IMG/VR virus record: IMGVR_UViG_3300033141_003324
Location: 1 to 21,445 of that record
From: a virus
DNA: 21,445 nt
Direction: 5' to 3' (one strand)
The position numbers and the translations under genes were made by a program. This document shows positions 1,660 to 13,486 of this stretch, piece by piece. The notes below the pieces were generated by a model, which was given only the letters and a program-made list of their open reading frames with translations, made no database searches and was not told the origin of the DNA. Each line of letters opens with the position of its first letter. The stretch's first letter is position 1.

Positions 1660-2258
1660 CACGTCGCCTCCCCAATGATTATTTGAAAGTCACCGGCCTG
1701 CGGTATCGTTTCCGCGCTGATCTTGGGGTCGACCGAGCCGCGCTGAATCGCGCGACCTACAATCTTGAAGCGCGATTCGACGAACTCCCTGAACTCGGCC
1801 ACCTCGAATTCGCGCTTGTGCCACGGGTTGTCGCGACCGGTTTTGACGGGCGTTGAAATCACAAGCCGGCCGCCGACCCTTATCGCCGCGCGGAAGGCGT
1901 CGAGGCACCTTTCGGGGTCTTCCATGTGTTCGATGGTCTCGAGGCACACGACGGCATCGAACGGACCGAGGTCGGCGGCGTCGGCGATTTCGGTCACACT
2001 ATAGATCACGTTCGGCGCGGCATAATGCTCGCAGGCGAACTCGACGGCCGGGCGATTTACGTCGATGCCGTGCACGCGGTCGGCGACGAATGAAAGCAGA
2101 TAGCAGCCGTATCCGCAGCCGCAGCCGGCGTCAAGAACGCGCGCGCCGAAGTCGATCGACCGCGCGGCGAACATGTAGCGTTGCACGTGGTCGCGGCGAA
2201 TCTTGTGTATCCGCTCGCCGACCTGCCGTTCTCCGCTGTTCAGGGCGTTGGGATTCAA
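1659..2258 (-). CDS. Class I SAM-dependent methyltransferase
   Basis: This 199-aa Rossmann-fold methyltransferase has motif I VLDAGCGCGYG at residues 41-51, an acidic residue in GIDVNRP near 64-70 that would contact the SAM ribose, and DAVVCLETIEHMEDP near 101-115, the UbiG/Methyltransf_11-type motif. The start is a TTG at 2258 that overlaps the stop of the preceding glycosyltransferase gene as TTGA. GGAGG lies 7 nt upstream, so the rare codon looks genuine. Being sandwiched between two glycosyltransferases suggests O-methylation or capping of a sugar, but a protein or small-molecule target cannot be excluded. Confidence 0.85.
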   Translation of the reverse strand: MNPNALNSGERQVGERIHKIRRDHVQRYMFAARSIDFGARVLDAGCGCGYGCYLLSFVADRVHGIDVNRPAVEFACEHYAAPNVIYSVTEIADAADLGPFDAVVCLETIEHMEDPERCLDAFRAAIRVGGRLVISTPVKTGRDNPWHKREFEVAEFREFVESRFKIVGRAIQRGSVDPKISAETIPQAGDFQIIIGEAT

Positions 2259-3637
2259 CCGACGGCCTCCAATCGCGCCGCAAAAGTCTGCGCAAGCCAG
2301 CAGTGTTGTTGATACCCGCGCGCACCGCCGCTGATGTTCCCCTCGTGTCGCCGGTAGCGGTATAGCGCGCCGTTGTCCAAAAAGACAAATTTCAACCCGC
2401 GCTCAAGCGCCCGCAACGCGAACTCGAAATCGTGTGAAGCGTTCAGTGCCTCGCTTTCGTTCTGGCCGCCCATATCGAGCCAGACGGAGCGGCGTATCAT
2501 CATCGTGGCCCCGGCGAATGAGTTCTTCAGGCTCAACATGTTCGTCGGGGTAATCGGCCCGACGCTGTTTCGCAGCCTCTTTCCCGAGCGCGCGGAAACG
2601 GTTTCGACGGCCGTATGACAGATGTCGTGGCCGGGATATTCCGCAAGGTATCGAAGCTGAAGCTCGAGCCTGTTCGGATGACTCCAGTCGTCGGCATCCT
2701 GGAAGGCCAGGATCGTCCCAGTCGCCCGGCGCGCGCCGAAGTTGCGCGCGGCCGCCGCCCCCTTGTGCTTGCGTCGAAAATAACGGATGCCGGCCAGTGT
2801 CGGAGATTCGCTGTGCGCGTATTTCAAAAGCAACTCCGACGTCCCGTCCGTCGAGCCGTCGTCCACGACGATAATTTCATGCACGGGCAGCGTCTGCGTT
2901 ATAACTGATTCGATCGCCTCCCGCACGTAGGCGACGGCGTTGTATACCGGCATTATCACGGAAACCGTCGGCGCGGCGTAGGTCTTGAGCGGTTGCGAAA
3001 CGCTCGCCCCGCCCCACTTCTCCGCGAACTGCGCCATGCCCTTGCGGAGACGGCCGTCCTGATAGGCGGACTTGCCGAAAGAGCTTGATGCCGCGTGATG
3101 CAGATACGCGCTCGAAACCCACGGCCGGATCGCCTCGCGGTAGCAGCGCGCGCAATAGTCTATGTCCTCGCCACCGTAGGCGTCGAAGCGCTCGTCGAAA
3201 AGCCCGACGCGGTCGAGCACCCAGCGGGGAAGCTGCACGCCGACAAAGCAAGTCGGCGATTTGCTTTCGCGCCACGGCCCGCGCCCCCACTGGAGCGCGT
3301 TCCCGGCCTGCCCCCGGCCGGTGCGGCACACCGCGAGCCGCTCCGGGTGCTCGCGGAATGCCTCGAACCAGCCCGGCGTCGCTTCTGTATCGTTGTTGAG
3401 CAGGATGACGTCGTCGCGGCCCGCGCGCTTGATGCCGAAGTTCGCCCGGTGGGCGAAAACGAATTTCTTGCGAGTTTTGACGATCTCCGCGCCCTCGGCC
3501 CAAGGCCCGAGCTTTGATTCCGGCCCCGCGACAAGGACAAGGCGATACTCGCCGGCGGGCGTGTGCTCGCGGATGGACCGCAGACACCGCTCGCTCATAT
3601 CGTCGCGCTGCGAAACAGGTATTACGATTGCCGTCAT
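2255..3637 (-). CDS. Bimodular family 2 glycosyltransferase
   Basis: This 460-aa protein has two GT-A modules in tandem. Module 1 (about 1-215) begins MTAIVIPVSQRDD, carries the metal-binding acidic motif as NNDTEA at 81-86, and has GGEDIDYCARCYR near 155-167. Module 2 (about 224-460) begins TVSVIMPVYNA, with VVDDGST at 257-263 for the nucleotide and QDADDW at 313-318 as the DXD site. Module 2 is a textbook GT2; module 1 is more like the truncated GT2 type found in phages and rhamnosyltransferases. Both keep their metal-binding acidic residues, so two successive sugar transfers are plausible. It is coupled at both ends: its ATG overlaps the stop of the 42-aa gene and its TGA overlaps the methyltransferase start. 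Confidence 0.88.
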   Translation of the reverse strand: MTAIVIPVSQRDDMSERCLRSIREHTPAGEYRLVLVAGPESKLGPWAEGAEIVKTRKKFVFAHRANFGIKRAGRDDVILLNNDTEATPGWFEAFREHPERLAVCRTGRGQAGNALQWGRGPWRESKSPTCFVGVQLPRWVLDRVGLFDERFDAYGGEDIDYCARCYREAIRPWVSSAYLHHAASSSFGKSAYQDGRLRKGMAQFAEKWGGASVSQPLKTYAAPTVSVIMPVYNAVAYVREAIESVITQTLPVHEIIVVDDGSTDGTSELLLKYAHSESPTLAGIRYFRRKHKGAAAARNFGARRATGTILAFQDADDWSHPNRLELQLRYLAEYPGHDICHTAVETVSARSGKRLRNSVGPITPTNMLSLKNSFAGATMMIRRSVWLDMGGQNESEALNASHDFEFALRALERGLKFVFLDNGALYRYRRHEGNISGGARGYQQHCWLAQTFAARLEAVG

Positions 3638-5259: not shown

Positions 5260-5646
5260 TCAGGGTATAAGCTGGAAATACGTGATCTCATATTCCGCGA
5301 TAATGCTGCCGTCCGCAGTGGTCCGCTCGGGGCCGTACCGAAACTCCTGCATGACCACGTTGGCATGCGAGCGGCCGTAGTTGTCTATAAGCGTATGCGC
5401 GGTGCCGGCGTCCTCGTATGCCTTTATTGCGGCCACGCCCGTGGCGAACGCGGCATGGCTTTCGGCCACGATGTGCCCGCGCTGCACGATATATCGGCCG
5501 CGCTGGCCGAGGTTCATCCGGGTCGAGCCGGATACACCCGGAAATGCGTCGTCCTTTTTCGCGTGCGGCGCGCCGCCGAAAACGAATTGCGCCGTGCAGT
5601 CGCCCGCCCACAGGCTCTGTCCGTCGAAGGTCGCGCTTGTCGCCAT
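5260..5646 (-). CDS. Distal tail / baseplate-like hypothetical protein
   Basis: A 128-aa protein whose ATG directly abuts the TAA of the tape-measure gene, so translation is probably coupled. The C-terminal half (RYGPERTTADGSIIAEYEITYFQL) resembles the closing strands of small phage baseplate or tail proteins in which the last strands pack on the tube. The gene lies immediately after the tape measure, where siphoviruses usually encode the distal tail protein, though this product is shorter than a typical Dit. The assignment rests on position and general look only. Confidence 0.65.
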   Translation of the reverse strand: MATSATFDGQSLWAGDCTAQFVFGGAPHAKKDDAFPGVSGSTRMNLGQRGRYIVQRGHIVAESHAAFATGVAAIKAYEDAGTAHTLIDNYGRSHANVVMQEFRYGPERTTADGSIIAEYEITYFQLIP

Positions 5647-7731
5647 TTATGCCGTCTCCGTCAACGTTACAAGTCGCGGGCTCGTCCGGTTGACAACCGG
5701 GTCCAGCCCGAGCAGCCGCGACAGGTCATCGCGCTGACCGTAATTGATAATGCGCTCGTTGTGGTGATGGATGTGGATGGGGGGCGAGAGCATGGACATT
5801 CCGCCCGCCGGCCGGGAGGCGGGAATTTTCGGTTCAACCGACGCCGGGTTTTCTTCCGGCAAGTCCGGACGAAGCTCTACGCCCCCTTCGGGGCTTTTTT
5901 GGTATAATATGTTCGGGATGACATCGAAGCCGTGGCGCGTAACCAAGCCTTGCCCGGCCTTAAGAAAAAGTCGGGCATCTATCGGATGCGTGCCCCTTTG
6001 GATTTGTTTGAGTGCTTCGGGGATATCCTTCGGCGCAATCCCGCGATCCCTAAACCACCTTACCATCTTAAAAATTTCAGGACCGTATTTCTGTTCAAGC
6101 ACTAACCCGGAAACGCCGCCCAGCATACCTCCCACATAATCAGTAGCGGCCTGCTCAAGCTCCCCAGCACCGGCCTTTTGCGCCAACCTTCCCCATCTCT
6201 CTAGTCGGGCTACATCCATAGCCAACTTGTCCCACTCGGCGTATTCCCGTGCCATTTTGTTAAGCGCTTCGAGCTTGGCATCCGGGGTAAATGCCATCTC
6301 TTTTATGGCCCGGCCGATTTTACCCGTTAAGCTCAACCCCTTCTCTTTTCTTATCCAAGTAGCCTTCGCAAAACCCTTGGTTAAAAGAGCCATCACGTTG
6401 CGGGGTTTCTTACCGGCCAGAAGCGTTTCAAGTTCGGCCAAATGCTTGCTATACCCAACCGCCCCGACAACCTGTCCTATCGGGGTTTCCGCGGCGCGCC
6501 GCAAACTTTCGGTAGCCTGCATCGCCTTCGTTATGCGTTCCATAAAGTCGGCATAAGACTTTTCATCTAATAGCAGGCCTATGGCCTTGTTCGCTTGAGC
6601 AGACAACATGCGCTTTGTGCGCTCGCGGTCTGGCCCCGAAAGTTTTACAAGCATATTACGAAATTTCAGTATTCGCTCTAACCCGCCATATTCGATAAGC
6701 GGCTTTTCGGGTAGCGCCTCCGCAAGCGCAGCGGGTAAGCCCATTTTCGCCAAGGTGTCTTGGATGCCCGGCATGCCCTTGCGGAGTTCCATGAATTTTG
6801 CGAATTTTTCCGAGACGCCTGTTGTAAATGCGGCTACCAACATTTCCGTCATGGTCGATGCTAGCCGTGTTGTTCGTCCGCCCCCGGCGGCCTTGGTGTA
6901 AAACGCAAGCGCTTCTTCGGGAGTCCAGCCCTCCTGAATTGCCGTGGCGAAAAATCGAGAACCATAGGCAATCGTTTCCTCGGTTTCTCTCGGCGAAAGC
7001 TCCAGGGCGGCGGAAAAAAGCCTCGCGCCCTCCCGGGCCTGCACGCTTAGCGGTTTTTCCCTCGCCTCTCCTTTCAACGACGCGATATACGCTCCGATAA
7101 ATTGAAGCGCATTTGTTTGATCGAATGCTTTTCCGAAAGAACGAAACGTCTTTAGAATTTCTACGGTAGTTTCTGTGATTCGCCGCTGTCGTTCTTCCGG
7201 TTTCTCTCCTAAAATTTGGGGCATCGCGGACTGCATTGTATACCATGCGCTTTTAAGTTTCCGCCAATCCGAAATGCCGGTCTTCGAGGCCATCGAAACC
7301 AGGATGCCCATCTTCCCGCCCATAAACACGAAGTCCATGAGGTTCCCCAGGGCATCCGCTGCCGCATCCGCGAGGCCTTCCATTTCTCTGCGAATGTCCT
7401 GGGAGAAACCTTTAATTGCCTTAAAGCCCCTCAGGATCGTGCCGGCCGTAATTCCGGCGAAAGCGGCCTTGACCAGACCGGCCGGGGAGCCGAGATTTTT
7501 CAGCGCGCCCCCCAGCCCCTTGACCTCTCGCTTGGCGCCCCCGATCCTGCGTCCCGCGCGCGCGGATTCATCGCCCGTCTTGCGCAAGCTTCGAGCCGCG
7601 GAATCGGCTTCTTTCCTTGCGGCCCTTTCCTCTACGCCGAGGCCCTTCATCTCACGCGCGAGCTTCTTGGTATCCGCCGCCGCCCTTGCGGCTTTCGCCT
7701 CGAAAACCAGTTGAAGTTTCTTTTTTATCAT
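5647..7731 (-). CDS. Tail tape measure protein
   Basis: A 694-aa protein that sets tail length. Residues 1-75 form a Lys/Arg/Ala/Glu-rich coiled coil starting MIKKKLQLVFEAKAARAA. A Gly/Ala-rich hydrophobic stretch follows (about 85-110, GLVKAAFAGITAGTILRGF), then a long, largely helical body. The C-terminus is less helical and contains IHIHHHNERIINYGQRDD. It starts by ATGA overlap with the chaperone extension frame, exactly as expected for a tape-measure gene after G/GT. It is modest in length for a siphovirus tape measure, implying a tail of roughly 100 nm by the usual 1.5 Angstrom-per-residue rule (inference). The middle of the gene is noticeably less GC-rich than its neighbours. Confidence 0.88.
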   Translation of the reverse strand: MIKKKLQLVFEAKAARAAADTKKLAREMKGLGVEERAARKEADSAARSLRKTGDESARAGRRIGGAKREVKGLGGALKNLGSPAGLVKAAFAGITAGTILRGFKAIKGFSQDIRREMEGLADAAADALGNLMDFVFMGGKMGILVSMASKTGISDWRKLKSAWYTMQSAMPQILGEKPEERQRRITETTVEILKTFRSFGKAFDQTNALQFIGAYIASLKGEAREKPLSVQAREGARLFSAALELSPRETEETIAYGSRFFATAIQEGWTPEEALAFYTKAAGGGRTTRLASTMTEMLVAAFTTGVSEKFAKFMELRKGMPGIQDTLAKMGLPAALAEALPEKPLIEYGGLERILKFRNMLVKLSGPDRERTKRMLSAQANKAIGLLLDEKSYADFMERITKAMQATESLRRAAETPIGQVVGAVGYSKHLAELETLLAGKKPRNVMALLTKGFAKATWIRKEKGLSLTGKIGRAIKEMAFTPDAKLEALNKMAREYAEWDKLAMDVARLERWGRLAQKAGAGELEQAATDYVGGMLGGVSGLVLEQKYGPEIFKMVRWFRDRGIAPKDIPEALKQIQRGTHPIDARLFLKAGQGLVTRHGFDVIPNILYQKSPEGGVELRPDLPEENPASVEPKIPASRPAGGMSMLSPPIHIHHHNERIINYGQRDDLSRLLGLDPVVNRTSPRLVTLTETA
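5881..5900 (+). terminator. Terminator-like hairpin on the plus strand inside tape-measure gene
   Basis: GCCCC-CTTC-GGGGC followed by six T on the plus strand, opposite the C-terminal coding part of the tape measure (minus strand). It would stop antisense transcripts. It could also be coincidental codon use (SPEGG on the coding strand). Confidence 0.4.
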
Positions 7732-7994
7732 CTCTTGATTTTCGCCCTCTGTTTCAGGGCCGCGATAGCGGCGGCCTGGCGCTTTTGCTCGGCCTCTCTC
7801 CGCGCGGCTTCGCGCTGCTCTCGAACGAGTCGCGCAAACTGTTCGTCATGCGCTTCAAGGTATTCGGCGAAACCCTGAATCCTTCCGGTCGCCGCGAGCA
7901 TGTCGAGCACGTCATCGACCAGATAGTGCGGGCATGTAAACTCGCCGATGCCCGCGGCGATCAGACCTGCGCGCCGCCAATCGTCCCGAGTTCG
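7728..7994 (-). CDS. Tail assembly chaperone C-terminal (T) part made by -1 frameshift
   Basis: This frame has no credible start of its own: the first in-frame candidate is a GTG at 7910 without a clear ribosome binding site. It is open back to the A-run at 7995-8003, where a -1 slip from the upstream chaperone frame enters it. The slip adds 88 residues beginning RTRDDWRRAGLIAAG after a Lys-rich junction and ending in a long charged helix (REAARREAEQKRQ...). The joined product is about 211 aa, equivalent in layout to lambda gpGT, in which the T part binds the tail tube protein and G coats the tape measure. The stop overlaps the tape-measure ATG (ATGA). Confidence 0.78.
   Translation of the reverse strand, partial: RTRDDWRRAGLIAAGIGEFTCPHYLVDDVLDMLAATGRIQGFAEYLEAHDEQFARLVREQREAARREAEQKRQAAAIAALKQRAKIKR
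7939..7992 (-). promoter_or_regulatory. Possible frameshift-stimulating hairpin
   Basis: Hand folding of the mRNA just after the slippery site gives nested pairing. AACTCG (7992-7987) pairs with CGAGTT (7944-7939), CGAT (7983-7980) with ATCG (7949-7946), and GCGGCG (7977-7972) with CGCCGC (7959-7954), with a 12-nt loop. The outer stem begins 1 nt after the heptamer, so it would be partly melted when the site is in the ribosome; the GC-rich inner stem starts 16 nt downstream. No energy was computed. Confidence 0.5.
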
Positions 7995-8362
7995 TTTTTT
8001 TTTGACAGGTTATAGACGTCGACGACGTTCCCGGCCTCTTCGGGGCCGAGAAGGCCATTTGCCTGCTCGGGCGTCAACTCAGGATAGTTTTTTTTGAGTA
8101 TCAAATAGGCCGCAACGAACACGTCGGCCCAGGGCAGCGTTGCGCCCTCCCGTTCGGCCCGCTCGAAAATCTCCGCAAGCTGCCCGGTCTCGGCGCGCAC
8201 GCTGACCGCTTCGGAAACGACCTTGCCGGATTCGTCCAGGCGCAAGTTCGGCGATACCCGGACGATCGCCGCCGGTACAAGCCACTCTTCGCCGTTCGCC
8301 AGCCTTACCGGCTCGCCGGCGGCGTCGGGCTTGCGCAGTTTCGCTTCAAGCGATTCGGTCAT
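7961..8362 (-). CDS. Tail assembly chaperone (G-type, zero-frame product)
   Basis: A 133-aa product beginning MTESLEAKLRKPDAAGEPVR, with a small beta region (EWLVPAAIVRVSPNLRL) followed by helices. The gene lies between the tube protein and the tape measure, the invariant place of the G gene. Near its 3' end the codons TCA AAA AAA AAC place the heptamer A AAA AAC in the right phase for -1 slippage. Without slippage translation ends 11 codons later at TGA (7961-7963). Identification comes from synteny plus the frameshift signal. The sequence itself is weakly similar to known chaperones, as is usual for this group. Confidence 0.8.
   Translation of the reverse strand: MTESLEAKLRKPDAAGEPVRLANGEEWLVPAAIVRVSPNLRLDESGKVVSEAVSVRAETGQLAEIFERAEREGATLPWADVFVAAYLILKKNYPELTPEQANGLLGPEEAGNVVDVYNLSKKNELGTIGGAQV
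7994..8000 (-). promoter_or_regulatory. Programmed -1 frameshift heptamer AAAAAAC
   Basis: Read on the minus strand, A AAA AAC is a canonical X XXY YYZ slippery site in zero-frame phase, inside a run of nine A (7995-8003). Slipping back one base moves ribosomes from the 133-aa frame into the frame ending at 7728 with no intervening stop. Confidence 0.82.
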
Positions 8363-8365
8363 GGT

Positions 8366-8788
8366 TTAGCTCTTGTCCGCGATCGATATGGGGTCAGAAC
8401 TGCCGTCCGAACTGGACGCGATGCCGTTGTATGTGACCGTCCCTTCCGAGCCATGCGCGCTGTCGGTGCTGATGCCCGTTATAAGCGCGTTGGAAATCGT
8501 AATCGTCTGCTCGTTTCCGGTGCCGATCGGGTCCACGTCGGCAGTGAACGTCCCGCTCAGGCCCACGTACACGTCGCCCCCGAGCGCGGTGGCGACGTCG
8601 AGGGTTTCCAGAGACCAGGTCGTCCTGACGCTTACGACCTTTGAGACCTGCGAGCGGATTTCGTCATCCGACTCGGGCTCAAGCACCTGCGCGGCCGTAT
8701 CGGAAATCGTCAGCCGCGCCGCTTTCGCAAGACTGACCCCGCCGATACTCGCATCGTGAACGTTAACGACGTAGGAAGGTGCCGCCAT
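8366..8788 (-). CDS. Major tail tube protein (candidate)
   Basis: A 140-aa protein starting MAAPSYVVNVHDASIGGVSL with GAAGGGGG about 8-13 nt upstream of the ATG. It is beta-rich and acidic, with alternating hydrophobics (VVSVRTTWSLETLD, VYVGLSGTFTADVD, QTITISNALITGIS), and resembles small tube subunits of siphoviruses. Its position directly before the chaperone/frameshift genes is the standard place of the tube gene. It has no enzymatic motif. Confidence 0.75.
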   Translation of the reverse strand: MAAPSYVVNVHDASIGGVSLAKAARLTISDTAAQVLEPESDDEIRSQVSKVVSVRTTWSLETLDVATALGGDVYVGLSGTFTADVDPIGTGNEQTITISNALITGISTDSAHGSEGTVTYNGIASSSDGSSDPISIADKS

Positions 8789-10176: not shown

Positions 10177-10823
10177 TGCCTGCGCACCTCGACCTGGTTT
10201 GCGAACGTCAGCATGTCGGCGTAGCCGTCGTCATCGGTATCCCATTCGATGGATACCAGGCGTGCCCACTTACGATAAAGCGCGTCGTAGTATTTCGCTT
10301 TTTCCCACTCGACCGAATCGCGTTCACGGCCCGCCGCAATCCCCTCGTAAATCAGCTGAAGCACGCGGTAGCAGACGACCGGCTTGACCTGGTCTGTATT
10401 CAGGACATCCGTAACGAGGCGGTCCTCGCCTTCATCGTTCGCGTTGAACCCGTGCAACGCGAACAGGTCATACATCGCCTGCTCGTGCTGATCGTCGAAG
10501 TGGTATATCGCAAACGATACCCCGCTCAGGCTCCCGGGCATCGCCGTCGAAAGCGCAAGCTGCGTCGCCGAGCTCGGGTCGCTCGCCACGGGATACACGC
10601 GGCCCTCCTCGTGCGTGCTTGTGCTCGCGGCCAGGTATACCACGTGCCCGGCCTCGACGCCGGCAGTCACGAAGTCGCTTCCCGCGCTGGTCAGCGTCGT
10701 GCCCGCCGAGTCGGTCGCGCCGTCCGCGCCCTCGACGAGCAGCTGATGCTGAAAACGCAGCGCGAAGATGTTCGGCTCGTAGACCAGCAGATCAGCGTCG
10801 CTTGTAAGATTGTCGCCTGCCAT
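10173..10823 (-). CDS. Head-tail connector/neck protein (candidate)
   Basis: A 216-aa acidic protein whose ATG shares one base with the preceding TAA (TAATG). The first 110 residues are Thr/Ser/Ala/Gly-rich beta sequence (GTTLTSAGSDFVTAG, VYLAASTSTHEEG). This pattern is also common in phage domains that handle values of a state variable along a sheet, and is not diagnostic. The second half is helical with aromatic residues (QVKPVVCYRVLQLIYEGIAAG, WEKAKYYDALYRKWARL) and resembles head-tail adaptor helices. Position after the minor head genes supports a connector role. Confidence 0.65.
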   Translation of the reverse strand: MAGDNLTSDADLLVYEPNIFALRFQHQLLVEGADGATDSAGTTLTSAGSDFVTAGVEAGHVVYLAASTSTHEEGRVYPVASDPSSATQLALSTAMPGSLSGVSFAIYHFDDQHEQAMYDLFALHGFNANDEGEDRLVTDVLNTDQVKPVVCYRVLQLIYEGIAAGRERDSVEWEKAKYYDALYRKWARLVSIEWDTDDDGYADMLTFANQVEVRRH

Positions 10824-11599
10824 TATTCACCCGTTTCGCGTTTGCGATATTCTTCCAAAACTTCATTGAGCCTGTTCCGGCGGACAGCTTGACGGACGAC
10901 TTCGACGGGGATTTCCAGATTGAAAATCGCGTTGATCACGTGTTGTTTCACGCCCGCCGCCCGGAGCAGATCGCGCATGAGTTCGGCCGTCTCCGGCATC
11001 TGCGCGAGCTTTACCGCCGTTTCCCGCACGCGCTTCAGGCTTGGGCCTACGAACTTCTCCTGAAGGCTCTGCCAGTATCGAAAGCCCTTGGCGTCAAGCG
11101 CGGCCTTTATCTGTTCAGCCTTCAGAAACTTCGCAAGCTCGAAAAAGGTCTTGACCCGGTTCGTCGCCATGACGTCGCGCGGGGCGACGATGCGCTTTTC
11201 GATGAGCCGCGCGTTATACTTGCCGACCGCGTTTATGCGCTCCGCCCGCGAAAGCTCCGGCCAGAGGTCTTCGAGCGGCCTGAAGCCGTATCCGTGCTGC
11301 CCGGGCATCACGGGCATATCGTCGCAGCGGCACCTGGTGTGATATTGCCCTTGCGTCACCTCAAAAAGCTGCCCATGCGCTTGCATACAACGCCCGCACG
11401 ATCGCGCGAATTTGCAGATGCGCTGGTACATCGTGCGCTCGCTCGTGTTGCGCGGCCGAAGCTCCGGATGGTCGACGTGCGCGATATGACCGGTCTCGCC
11501 GCGGAACTGCTCGAACGCCTCGCGTATGCGCTCCTGCCGCTCGGCAAGGCTCCGCACGTCGGAAACGTCGGTGCGTTCGAGTCCGGCCACGGCGGTCAT
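10823..11599 (-). CDS. Minor head protein with MuF-like cysteine motif
   Basis: The ATG at 11599 overlaps the upstream TGA (ATGA) with GGGAGG 8 nt upstream; the in-frame ATG at 11626 lies inside the preceding gene and lacks such a site. The 258-aa product has CGRCMQAHGQLFEV and HTRCRCDDMPVMPG in its first 110 residues, the paired Cys pattern (CxxC...HxxCRC) seen at the end of MuF/SPP1 gp7-type minor head domains. The C-terminal half is helical and basic, ending EEYRKRETGE. MuF proteins sit inside the capsid near the portal and may be ejected with DNA. Confidence 0.72.
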   Translation of the reverse strand: MTAVAGLERTDVSDVRSLAERQERIREAFEQFRGETGHIAHVDHPELRPRNTSERTMYQRICKFARSCGRCMQAHGQLFEVTQGQYHTRCRCDDMPVMPGQHGYGFRPLEDLWPELSRAERINAVGKYNARLIEKRIVAPRDVMATNRVKTFFELAKFLKAEQIKAALDAKGFRYWQSLQEKFVGPSLKRVRETAVKLAQMPETAELMRDLLRAAGVKQHVINAIFNLEIPVEVVRQAVRRNRLNEVLEEYRKRETGE

Positions 11600-12192
11600 G
11601 CGGCCATCCTCCCGGTCATGCCCCAAACGCGCGCGTTGTTGCGCGCGGCCTCGAATGCGTCGGCGAAATCGGCTATCGCCTTCGCAAGGAACCGCTCGAA
11701 CGCTTTGCGCGTCTCGCGGTTGATAAACGCGAGCTTCCCGGCTTCCGTGATATTCAGGTCGTGGGCGTCGTTCAGTATGCGCCGCACGTCGGCGGCCAGC
11801 GTAACACCGCGCGCGCGGAACCGCACTTCGGGTTTCGCGCCGCCGAGAACGCAGCGCCGGATTTCCGCGAGCATCGCCTTCGTGGGCCGATCCGACACGA
11901 GGTCCGGAAACCGCCGGTGAAGCTCGCGCCAGTACGACGCGAAAAAAGTCTCGGCCGCGCGGCCTTCCATCTTCGCCAGCCGCAACGCGAGCCGTTCGGT
12001 GATCCGCAAAAGACGTCGATAGTTTTCGTTCGTCTCAATTAGCCGCAAGAGTCGCGACGGCCGGGTTTCCGTCCGGAACCGCCGCGTGAACGTATCAAGC
12101 ACGCGCGCCATGCCGCGTTCACGCGCGCCGCGCACAAGCGAGCGCACCTTGTTGAGCGTCCGTTTCGCCTTGTCCACTGCGCGTTTGGCCAT
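11596..12192 (-). CDS. Minor head protein, first of coupled pair
   Basis: A 198-aa, strongly basic helical protein from the ATG at 12192, chosen because GGAAG lies 7 nt upstream; the alternative ATG at 12231 has no ribosome binding site and lies within the upstream small gene. The sequence begins MAKRAVDKAKRTLNKV, has a helical core (LLRITERLALRLAKMEGRAAETFFASYWRELH, a region of about 30 residues near 75-105) and ends FEAARNNARVWGMTGRMAA. It is directly coupled to the MuF-like gene. It could be the N-terminal part of an ancestral single minor-head protein, but each gene has its own signals. Function is inferred from position. Confidence 0.68.
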   Translation of the reverse strand: MAKRAVDKAKRTLNKVRSLVRGARERGMARVLDTFTRRFRTETRPSRLLRLIETNENYRRLLRITERLALRLAKMEGRAAETFFASYWRELHRRFPDLVSDRPTKAMLAEIRRCVLGGAKPEVRFRARGVTLAADVRRILNDAHDLNITEAGKLAFINRETRKAFERFLAKAIADFADAFEAARNNARVWGMTGRMAA

Positions 12193-12196
12193 GATC

Positions 12197-12358
12197 TTAC
12201 TTCCGCCGTCCTTCCGCCCGCTTCGCCGCATGTTCGATTTTTTTGCGCATCATCTGTTGCCACGTGCCCGACGGCAACCGACCGGTAGTCTGCAAGTGGT
12301 GTTTGTACGCGCGGCCCATGACCCGCTCGACCGCCGCACGTTCGTCACGCCGAGGCAT
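12197..12358 (-). CDS. 53-aa basic small protein in head operon
   Basis: A small gene with AGGGGGG about 6 nt before ATG 12358, overlapping the end of the glycosyltransferase gene by 14 nt and ending 4 nt before the next ATG. The product starts MPRRDERAAVERVMGRAYKH and ends KRAEGRRK. It is Arg/Lys-rich, predicted helical, and contains TGRLPSGTWQQMM. No family is recognised. Its spacing and ribosome binding site support translation. It could be a small nucleic-acid-binding or head-packing protein (speculative). Confidence 0.62.
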   Translation of the reverse strand: MPRRDERAAVERVMGRAYKHHLQTTGRLPSGTWQQMMRKKIEHAAKRAEGRRK

Positions 12359-13115
12359 GCGCCGCCCCCCTTATCCTCTCGCGGTCGCGCGGCTCGGAAA
12401 ACACGAAGACCTTGCGCGCCCCGCGCCTGAACTCGGCCCACTTCGCCGCGCTCGGGTATACGCGCCCGGTCTCGGCGTCCAGGTGGCCGCAGCGGACGGA
12501 TGAGTCGCAGTAAATCCTGTAACCCCTTTTGCGCGCCTCGATGCAAAACCAGACGTCCTCGCCCTTGGTGACGAGCGAATTGACGAAGCCGTCGCCCTGC
12601 TTGACCTGTAGAAACCAGTTCCACTGGAACGCGGGCCTGCCCGCGCCCTCGATAGAATCGAAAACTTCCATGGCCGTCAGGAAGCACCCGAACCCGCAGA
12701 CGTCCACCTCGAAGTAGTCCGGCCATTGCCAGCAGTCCGAGTACTCCGGGATGCCGCCGAGCCGCTCGCGCCGCCAGCCGATGCAGGCATGGTTTTCATC
12801 GTCATCAAGCTTGCGGAATACGACGCCGGTAACGAGCGGCGCGTTGTGCGCGGCGAGCTTTACCAGCGCGTCGTCCGGGACGACCGTGTCATCGTCCACC
12901 CACCAGATGTGCGTCGCGCCTTCCCGCCGCGCCCATGCGAGCAGCCGCAGGCGGTTCTCGACGGGGCTGTCGTTTTCGTCTGCGCCGGGGACCACCAGGT
13001 GCGCGGGCATGCTGCCCGTGGCGTCGAAGTATTTCAGCCGCGCGCGCAGGATCGACGCCGCGGCTACCGCGGGGATCGCGTTTCGCGTCGGGGTGCAGAC
13101 AACGATTCGCATCAT
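12345..13115 (-). CDS. Glycosyltransferase embedded in head gene block
   Basis: A 256-aa GT-A protein. It begins MMRIVVCTPTRN, carries the DXD site as WWVDDDTVVPDDAL at residues about 71-84, has VCGFGCFLTAMEVFD in the acceptor-side half, and ends with EDVWFCIEARKRGYRIYCDSSVRCGHL. This is the ED and His pattern of single-domain GT2-like enzymes common in phages and environmental bacteria. The ATG overlaps the upstream TGA by 4 nt. Being inside the capsid operon between two head genes suggests it acts on a virion protein or is made at late time to modify host glycans. Donor sugar is unknown. Confidence 0.85.
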   Translation of the reverse strand: MMRIVVCTPTRNAIPAVAAASILRARLKYFDATGSMPAHLVVPGADENDSPVENRLRLLAWARREGATHIWWVDDDTVVPDDALVKLAAHNAPLVTGVVFRKLDDDENHACIGWRRERLGGIPEYSDCWQWPDYFEVDVCGFGCFLTAMEVFDSIEGAGRPAFQWNWFLQVKQGDGFVNSLVTKGEDVWFCIEARKRGYRIYCDSSVRCGHLDAETGRVYPSAAKWAEFRRGARKVFVFSEPRDRERIRGAAHASA

Positions 13116-13486
13116 TCCGCCACCTTTCGCTTTTTCGCGACCGCCTTCTTTCGCTTTGCCCTGCGCACTTTCGGCTTGACTACCACGGACGGCTCCTCTT
13201 TTTCGGCCGGTTCGTAATTGAAGTGACGCCGAATCTGTTCGAGCGGCACTCCGGAGCCGAGGACGGCCTTGCGCTTCGCCTTTTCGATCATCGCCTCGGT
13301 CACGAGGTCGATCGGGACGAACCCCTTGTCGAGATAGCGCTGCACGCCATCCCCGCCGGTAGTCCGGGCGTCAACGGATACCGTTATCGTGTACGGGACG
13401 AGTTCCCCGCGCGCGTCGCGCAGGAACTTCCCCGTCCAGAACGTTATCCGCCGTTGCGCGGTTTCCGTTTCTCTCAGCGTCGCCAT
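13112..13486 (-). CDS. Head protein with Lys/Arg-rich tail
   Basis: The start at 13486 (MATLRETETAQRRI) has GGAGGGG about 9-10 nt upstream; the earlier in-frame ATG at 13504 overlaps that site. The 124-aa product has a beta-rich region (ITFWTGKFLRD, VPYTITVSVDA) then helices, and ends in a strongly basic tail (KPKVRRAKRKKAVAKKRKVAE region, last 25 residues). It follows the capsid gene. A decoration, DNA-binding or head-completion role is possible. No family is recognised. Confidence 0.68.
   Translation of the reverse strand: MATLRETETAQRRITFWTGKFLRDARGELVPYTITVSVDARTTGGDGVQRYLDKGFVPIDLVTEAMIEKAKRKAVLGSGVPLEQIRRHFNYEPAEKEEPSVVVKPKVRRAKRKKAVAKKRKVAE

Follow-up and report, generated by a model that had tools for sequence, protein, structure and literature searches.

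Two overlapping open reading frames located between the presumed major tail protein and the presumed tape measure protein of an uncultured tailed-phage genome appear to encode the tail assembly chaperones of a siphovirus-like phage, expressed through a lambda-type G/GT -1 frameshift; on the strength of the sequence we judge this reading very probable (roughly 0.85). The window, by which we mean the whole stretch of DNA analysed, is the virus record IMGVR_UViG_3300033141_003324 of IMG/VR, which comprises 21,445 bases at a GC content of 60% and has minus-strand late genes. The gene order (terL, portal, scaffold, MCP, ..., tube, G, T, tape measure) is the usual one for long-tailed phages, and the features that define it are listed here.

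18129-16828, minus strand: terL, identified by PHROG or Pfam family
16808-15282, minus strand: portal, identified by PHROG or Pfam family
14424-13576, minus strand: MCP, identified by PHROG or Pfam family
8366..8788, minus strand: presumed tail tube protein, 140 aa, assigned by gene order
8362-7961, minus strand: G-like ORF, 133 aa, the zero-frame product and presumed short chaperone of tail assembly, from the reading of the ORF and its codon usage
7728..7994, minus strand: T-like -1 extension, 88 codons and a stop, to be read solely as a post-slip fusion, from translation
5647..7731, minus strand: presumed tape measure protein, 694 aa, assigned by position and length

The identity of the genes on either side of the two frames follows from order and length, and on these grounds the placement between tube and tape measure, likened to that of lambda in the preliminary description of this DNA, was confirmed. 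Matches of the presumed tape measure protein to PHROG tape-measure families are weak only (E 0.08-0.1). The tube protein has no homologue in sequence searches, and its AlphaFold model, made without an alignment, was too poor for use.

The G-like ORF has the top codon-usage score among the six frames. Towards its end it contains a potential slippery site, and a second copy of the same motif lies further upstream; a hairpin had also been proposed earlier.

8087..8095, minus strand: second in-phase A AAA AAC (A8C) in the G-like ORF, seen in the sequence
7994..8000, minus strand: slippery heptamer A AAA AAC inside A9, in phase with the G-like ORF (codons TCA AAA AAA AAC)
7938..7993, minus strand: hairpin proposed earlier, drawable at -24.1 kcal/mol

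The preliminary description had named the heptamer, its phase, the nine-A run and a -1 frame open for 88 codons, and each of these is present as described: the phase of A AAA AAC matches ORF 8362-7961, the run of nine A occupies 8003-7995, and the -1 frame, whose product reads RTRDDWRRAG...KQRAKIKR, continues to a stop at 7730-7728 that overlaps the start codon of the tape measure gene (ATGA). Past the heptamer the zero frame of G runs for 10 more codons, and a +1 slip at the nine-A run gives 26 codons and then a stop. When codons are drawn at this genome's frequencies, an in-phase A AAA AAN within 40 codons has a chance probability of about 0.007, and any in-phase X XXY YYZ within the same distance one of about 0.03; under synonymous redraw of the G protein a nine-A run occurs with P about 0.016. 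The openness of the -1 frame by itself adds little, since 574 of 5000 dinucleotide shuffles (11%) also keep all 88 codons open. The codon usage of the T frame is the best of the six frames, but barely above that of one antisense frame.

The A9 and A8 runs, both within the G-like ORF, are the two longest homopolymers of the window, A9 being the longest, and synonymous redraw of the G protein gives two runs of at least eight A with P about 0.02. We rejected A8C (8095-8087) as a second shift site because slips in either direction stop within 3 codons (after 2 codons for -1 and after 3 for +1), and it is probably not functional. As the T-containing -1 frame begins just downstream of A8C, A9 is the sole usable site in the overlap; the A8 run is mildly curious and needs no explanation. 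The tape measure gene itself starts ATG ATA AAA AAG, so that its codons 2-4 (7720-7726) hold A AAA AAG in phase, and a -1 slip there leads to a stop after 22 codons.

The GC-rich hairpin proposed downstream of the site (7993-7938) can indeed be drawn; it was rejected as evidence, as it is no more stable than shuffled sequence (z = -0.5), leaves essentially no spacer to the slippery site and differs from the fold of the longer stretch. No unusually stable RNA structure was found 5-9 nt downstream of the slippery site, and no SD-like stimulator was seen in the sequence just upstream. The lack of both a well-spaced stable hairpin and an SD-like stimulator is compatible with a low slippage rate.

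Neither G nor T gave a significant match to a Pfam, PHROG or NCBIfam family. The AlphaFold model of G, made without an alignment, was poor (pLDDT 47), and the best Foldseek match obtained with it was a tail assembly chaperone at a non-significant E of 0.47. Searches with G, T, the tube and tape measure proteins and the gene at 5260-5646 found no relatives in viral contigs and/or phage records, and a profile comparison of the window's G and T with those of the capsid relatives described below was null. Likewise, the portal had no match among viral contigs and the MCP none among genome contigs. TerL as query retrieved many loci from viral and genome contigs, none of them with a homologous tail module. 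Since neither G and T nor the tube and tape measure proteins of the window have detectable sequence relatives, the G/GT identity is argued from gene order and architecture. Support for the earlier G/GT chaperone reading comes from the in-phase site, the open -1 frame, the position and the 54 relatives considered next, and not from any sequence homology of this G and T with the lambda proteins or with the chaperones of the relatives.

Comparison with relatives gives the reading its strongest support. These were collected with the window MCP and consist of phage records and 80 further contigs from an alignment search. They include pelagiphages HTVC112P, HTVC202P, HTVC111P and HTVC026P, the lake phage DSL-LC06 and marine contigs; their MCPs are about 38-40% identical to that of the window, and those of the phage records 37-39%. 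In every relative with a complete G-like ORF (54/54, not independent loci, as many are near-identical) a -1 slippery heptamer is found in phase at the last sense codons of that ORF, and the -1 frame continues from it; the two-frame arrangement is conserved in all of these distant relatives. The heptamer is A AAA AAC, A AAA AAG or A AAA AAA in 53 of the 54 and G GGA AAC in the remaining one (L088:9194), and the A runs span 6 to 10 A, several having 9 or 10. Complete -1 frames in the relatives are about 52-66 codons long and lead to the tape measure where that gene is included. Across ten pairs, which share sequences, so that the counts are not independent events, the first, second and third codon positions of these frames carry 82, 41 and 132 substitutions; this peak at third positions shows that the -1 frame is translated in the relatives.

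In DSL-LC06 the G-like ORF is annotated as a tail assembly chaperone and the next ORF as tape measure. The -1 extension is absent as a feature from HTVC112P (L005:19072-19246), HTVC111P (L007:11765-11942) and DSL-LC06 (L004:18673-18854), and HTVC112P gp41 and HTVC111P gp45 are opposite-strand ORFs annotated over it. The HTVC111P-type pelagiphages and DSL-LC06 (MN698245, MN698246, MN698248, MN698240, OR003941) have, like the window, the device ahead of the tape measure, with A AAA AAC or A AAA AAG as heptamer, and their MCP is related to that of the window. However, their heptamer abuts the G stop, whereas in the window G continues for 10 codons, their loci have 30-38% GC compared with 60%, and their G and T proteins, in records where the frameshift is unannotated, have no detectable sequence relation to those of the window. 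As the profiles of the two sets do not align, the relatives speak for the device and not for homology of G and T: the device is common in this head lineage, from which homology of the window's G/T to the relatives' G/T does not follow.

Among the capsid relatives the closest is L010, with an MCP 56% identical. Its tail module (10614-13160) is of quite another kind, in which a 317-aa tube-like gene is followed by a tape-measure-like frame, and no recognisable G/T pair was seen in the available part of the locus. This unlike tail module suggests that tail modules have been exchanged within the group. Genes that look glycosyltransferase-like in sequence lie within the late structural region of the window at 12345-13115 and 2255-3637, and L010 carries a homologue of the former at the corresponding position.

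In the most likely mechanism, the lambda-type one, the majority of ribosomes would make G (133 aa), while a minority would slip by -1 on A AAA AAC (7994-8000) through simultaneous slippage, with tRNA-Lys and tRNA-Asn re-pairing with AAA AAA, and would read 88 more codons to yield GT of about 211 aa. Tail assembly would then be controlled by the low proportion of GT to G that results from the slip, with G acting as a coat on the tape measure protein and GT bringing in tube subunits through its T part. The occurrence and rate of the slip and the chaperone role of these proteins are what we infer; the site, phase, open frame and gene order, and the conservation of the device in distant relatives, are observed.

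The resemblance to lambda, whose slippery sequence is G GGA AAG, lies in the location between tube and tape measure, the -1 slip near the end of G and the short T-like extension; the window differs in using A AAA AAC within A9, and no sequence homology to lambda G/GT was found. The lambda G/GT tail assembly chaperones have been described by Levin 1993 and Xu, Hendrix and Duda 2004, 2013, 2014 (as reviewed in PMC5009743), and the G-T frameshift is reported to be widely conserved in long-tailed phages (PMC5009743). The haloarchaeal virus HCTV-2 has a g-t shift site of A_AAA_AAC (PMC5009743), the same heptamer in the same gene position as in the window, but belongs to another phage group and infects another host domain; the two are likened here by site and position.

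The length of the A run raises the question of transcription. RNA polymerase might slip on A9, so that mRNAs with one extra A would give GT, alone or beside ribosomal slippage, and the G:GT ratio would be set partly or wholly in this way. On runs of 9 A or T slippage of the bacterial RNA polymerase is efficient, and Thermus dnaX makes use of it with a nine-base A/T run (PMC5009743); the T. thermophilus gene resembles the window in having such a run between two frames, but is a cellular gene that employs polymerase slippage, and several of the capsid relatives also have 9 or 10 A. However, A9 contains a complete in-phase A AAA AAC, and other relatives have only 6-8 A, or G GGA AAC, each time in the phase that fits ribosomal slippage. 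These shorter runs and the G GGA AAC site make ribosomal slippage the likely conserved mechanism, and we regard a contribution of the polymerase as unlikely, though as a real alternative or addition. The same run, being the longest homopolymer of the window, might instead hold a length error in the contig, since a run longer by one base or shorter by two would join G and T into one continuous ORF without any frameshift. This is very unlikely given that all 54 relatives have the two-frame organisation and that the neighbouring genes, and with them the A8 run of the G-like ORF, are intact.

T might be a separate gene, started after termination of G at GTG 7910 or ATG 7901, both of which are in frame and are the only starts available. 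In agreement with the earlier claim that T has no supportable start of its own, no Shine-Dalgarno-like sequence was found upstream of either; the product would drop the first 28 or more T codons, and in the relatives the -1 frame follows without a gap on the slippery codons beside the G stop, which makes separate initiation very unlikely. A chance A run and a chance open frame, with T left untranslated, might be argued from the 11% of shuffles that stay open and from the antisense frame that nearly equals T in codon usage. Yet the site, the openness, the position and the exact abutment to the tape measure start are jointly improbable by chance, and the same device is conserved in the relatives; coincidence is accordingly most improbable.

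The frameshift itself is already well known from lambda and many tailed phages, and the window is very probably an ordinary, if tidy, new example of it. The HTVC111P-type pelagiphages and their many marine relatives carry a GT frameshift that is unannotated in the phage records examined, a result that corrects gene models and leaves principles as they were. The window contributes a further phage lineage whose tail proteins have diverged beyond recognition and whose G/GT frameshift can be detected by architecture alone.
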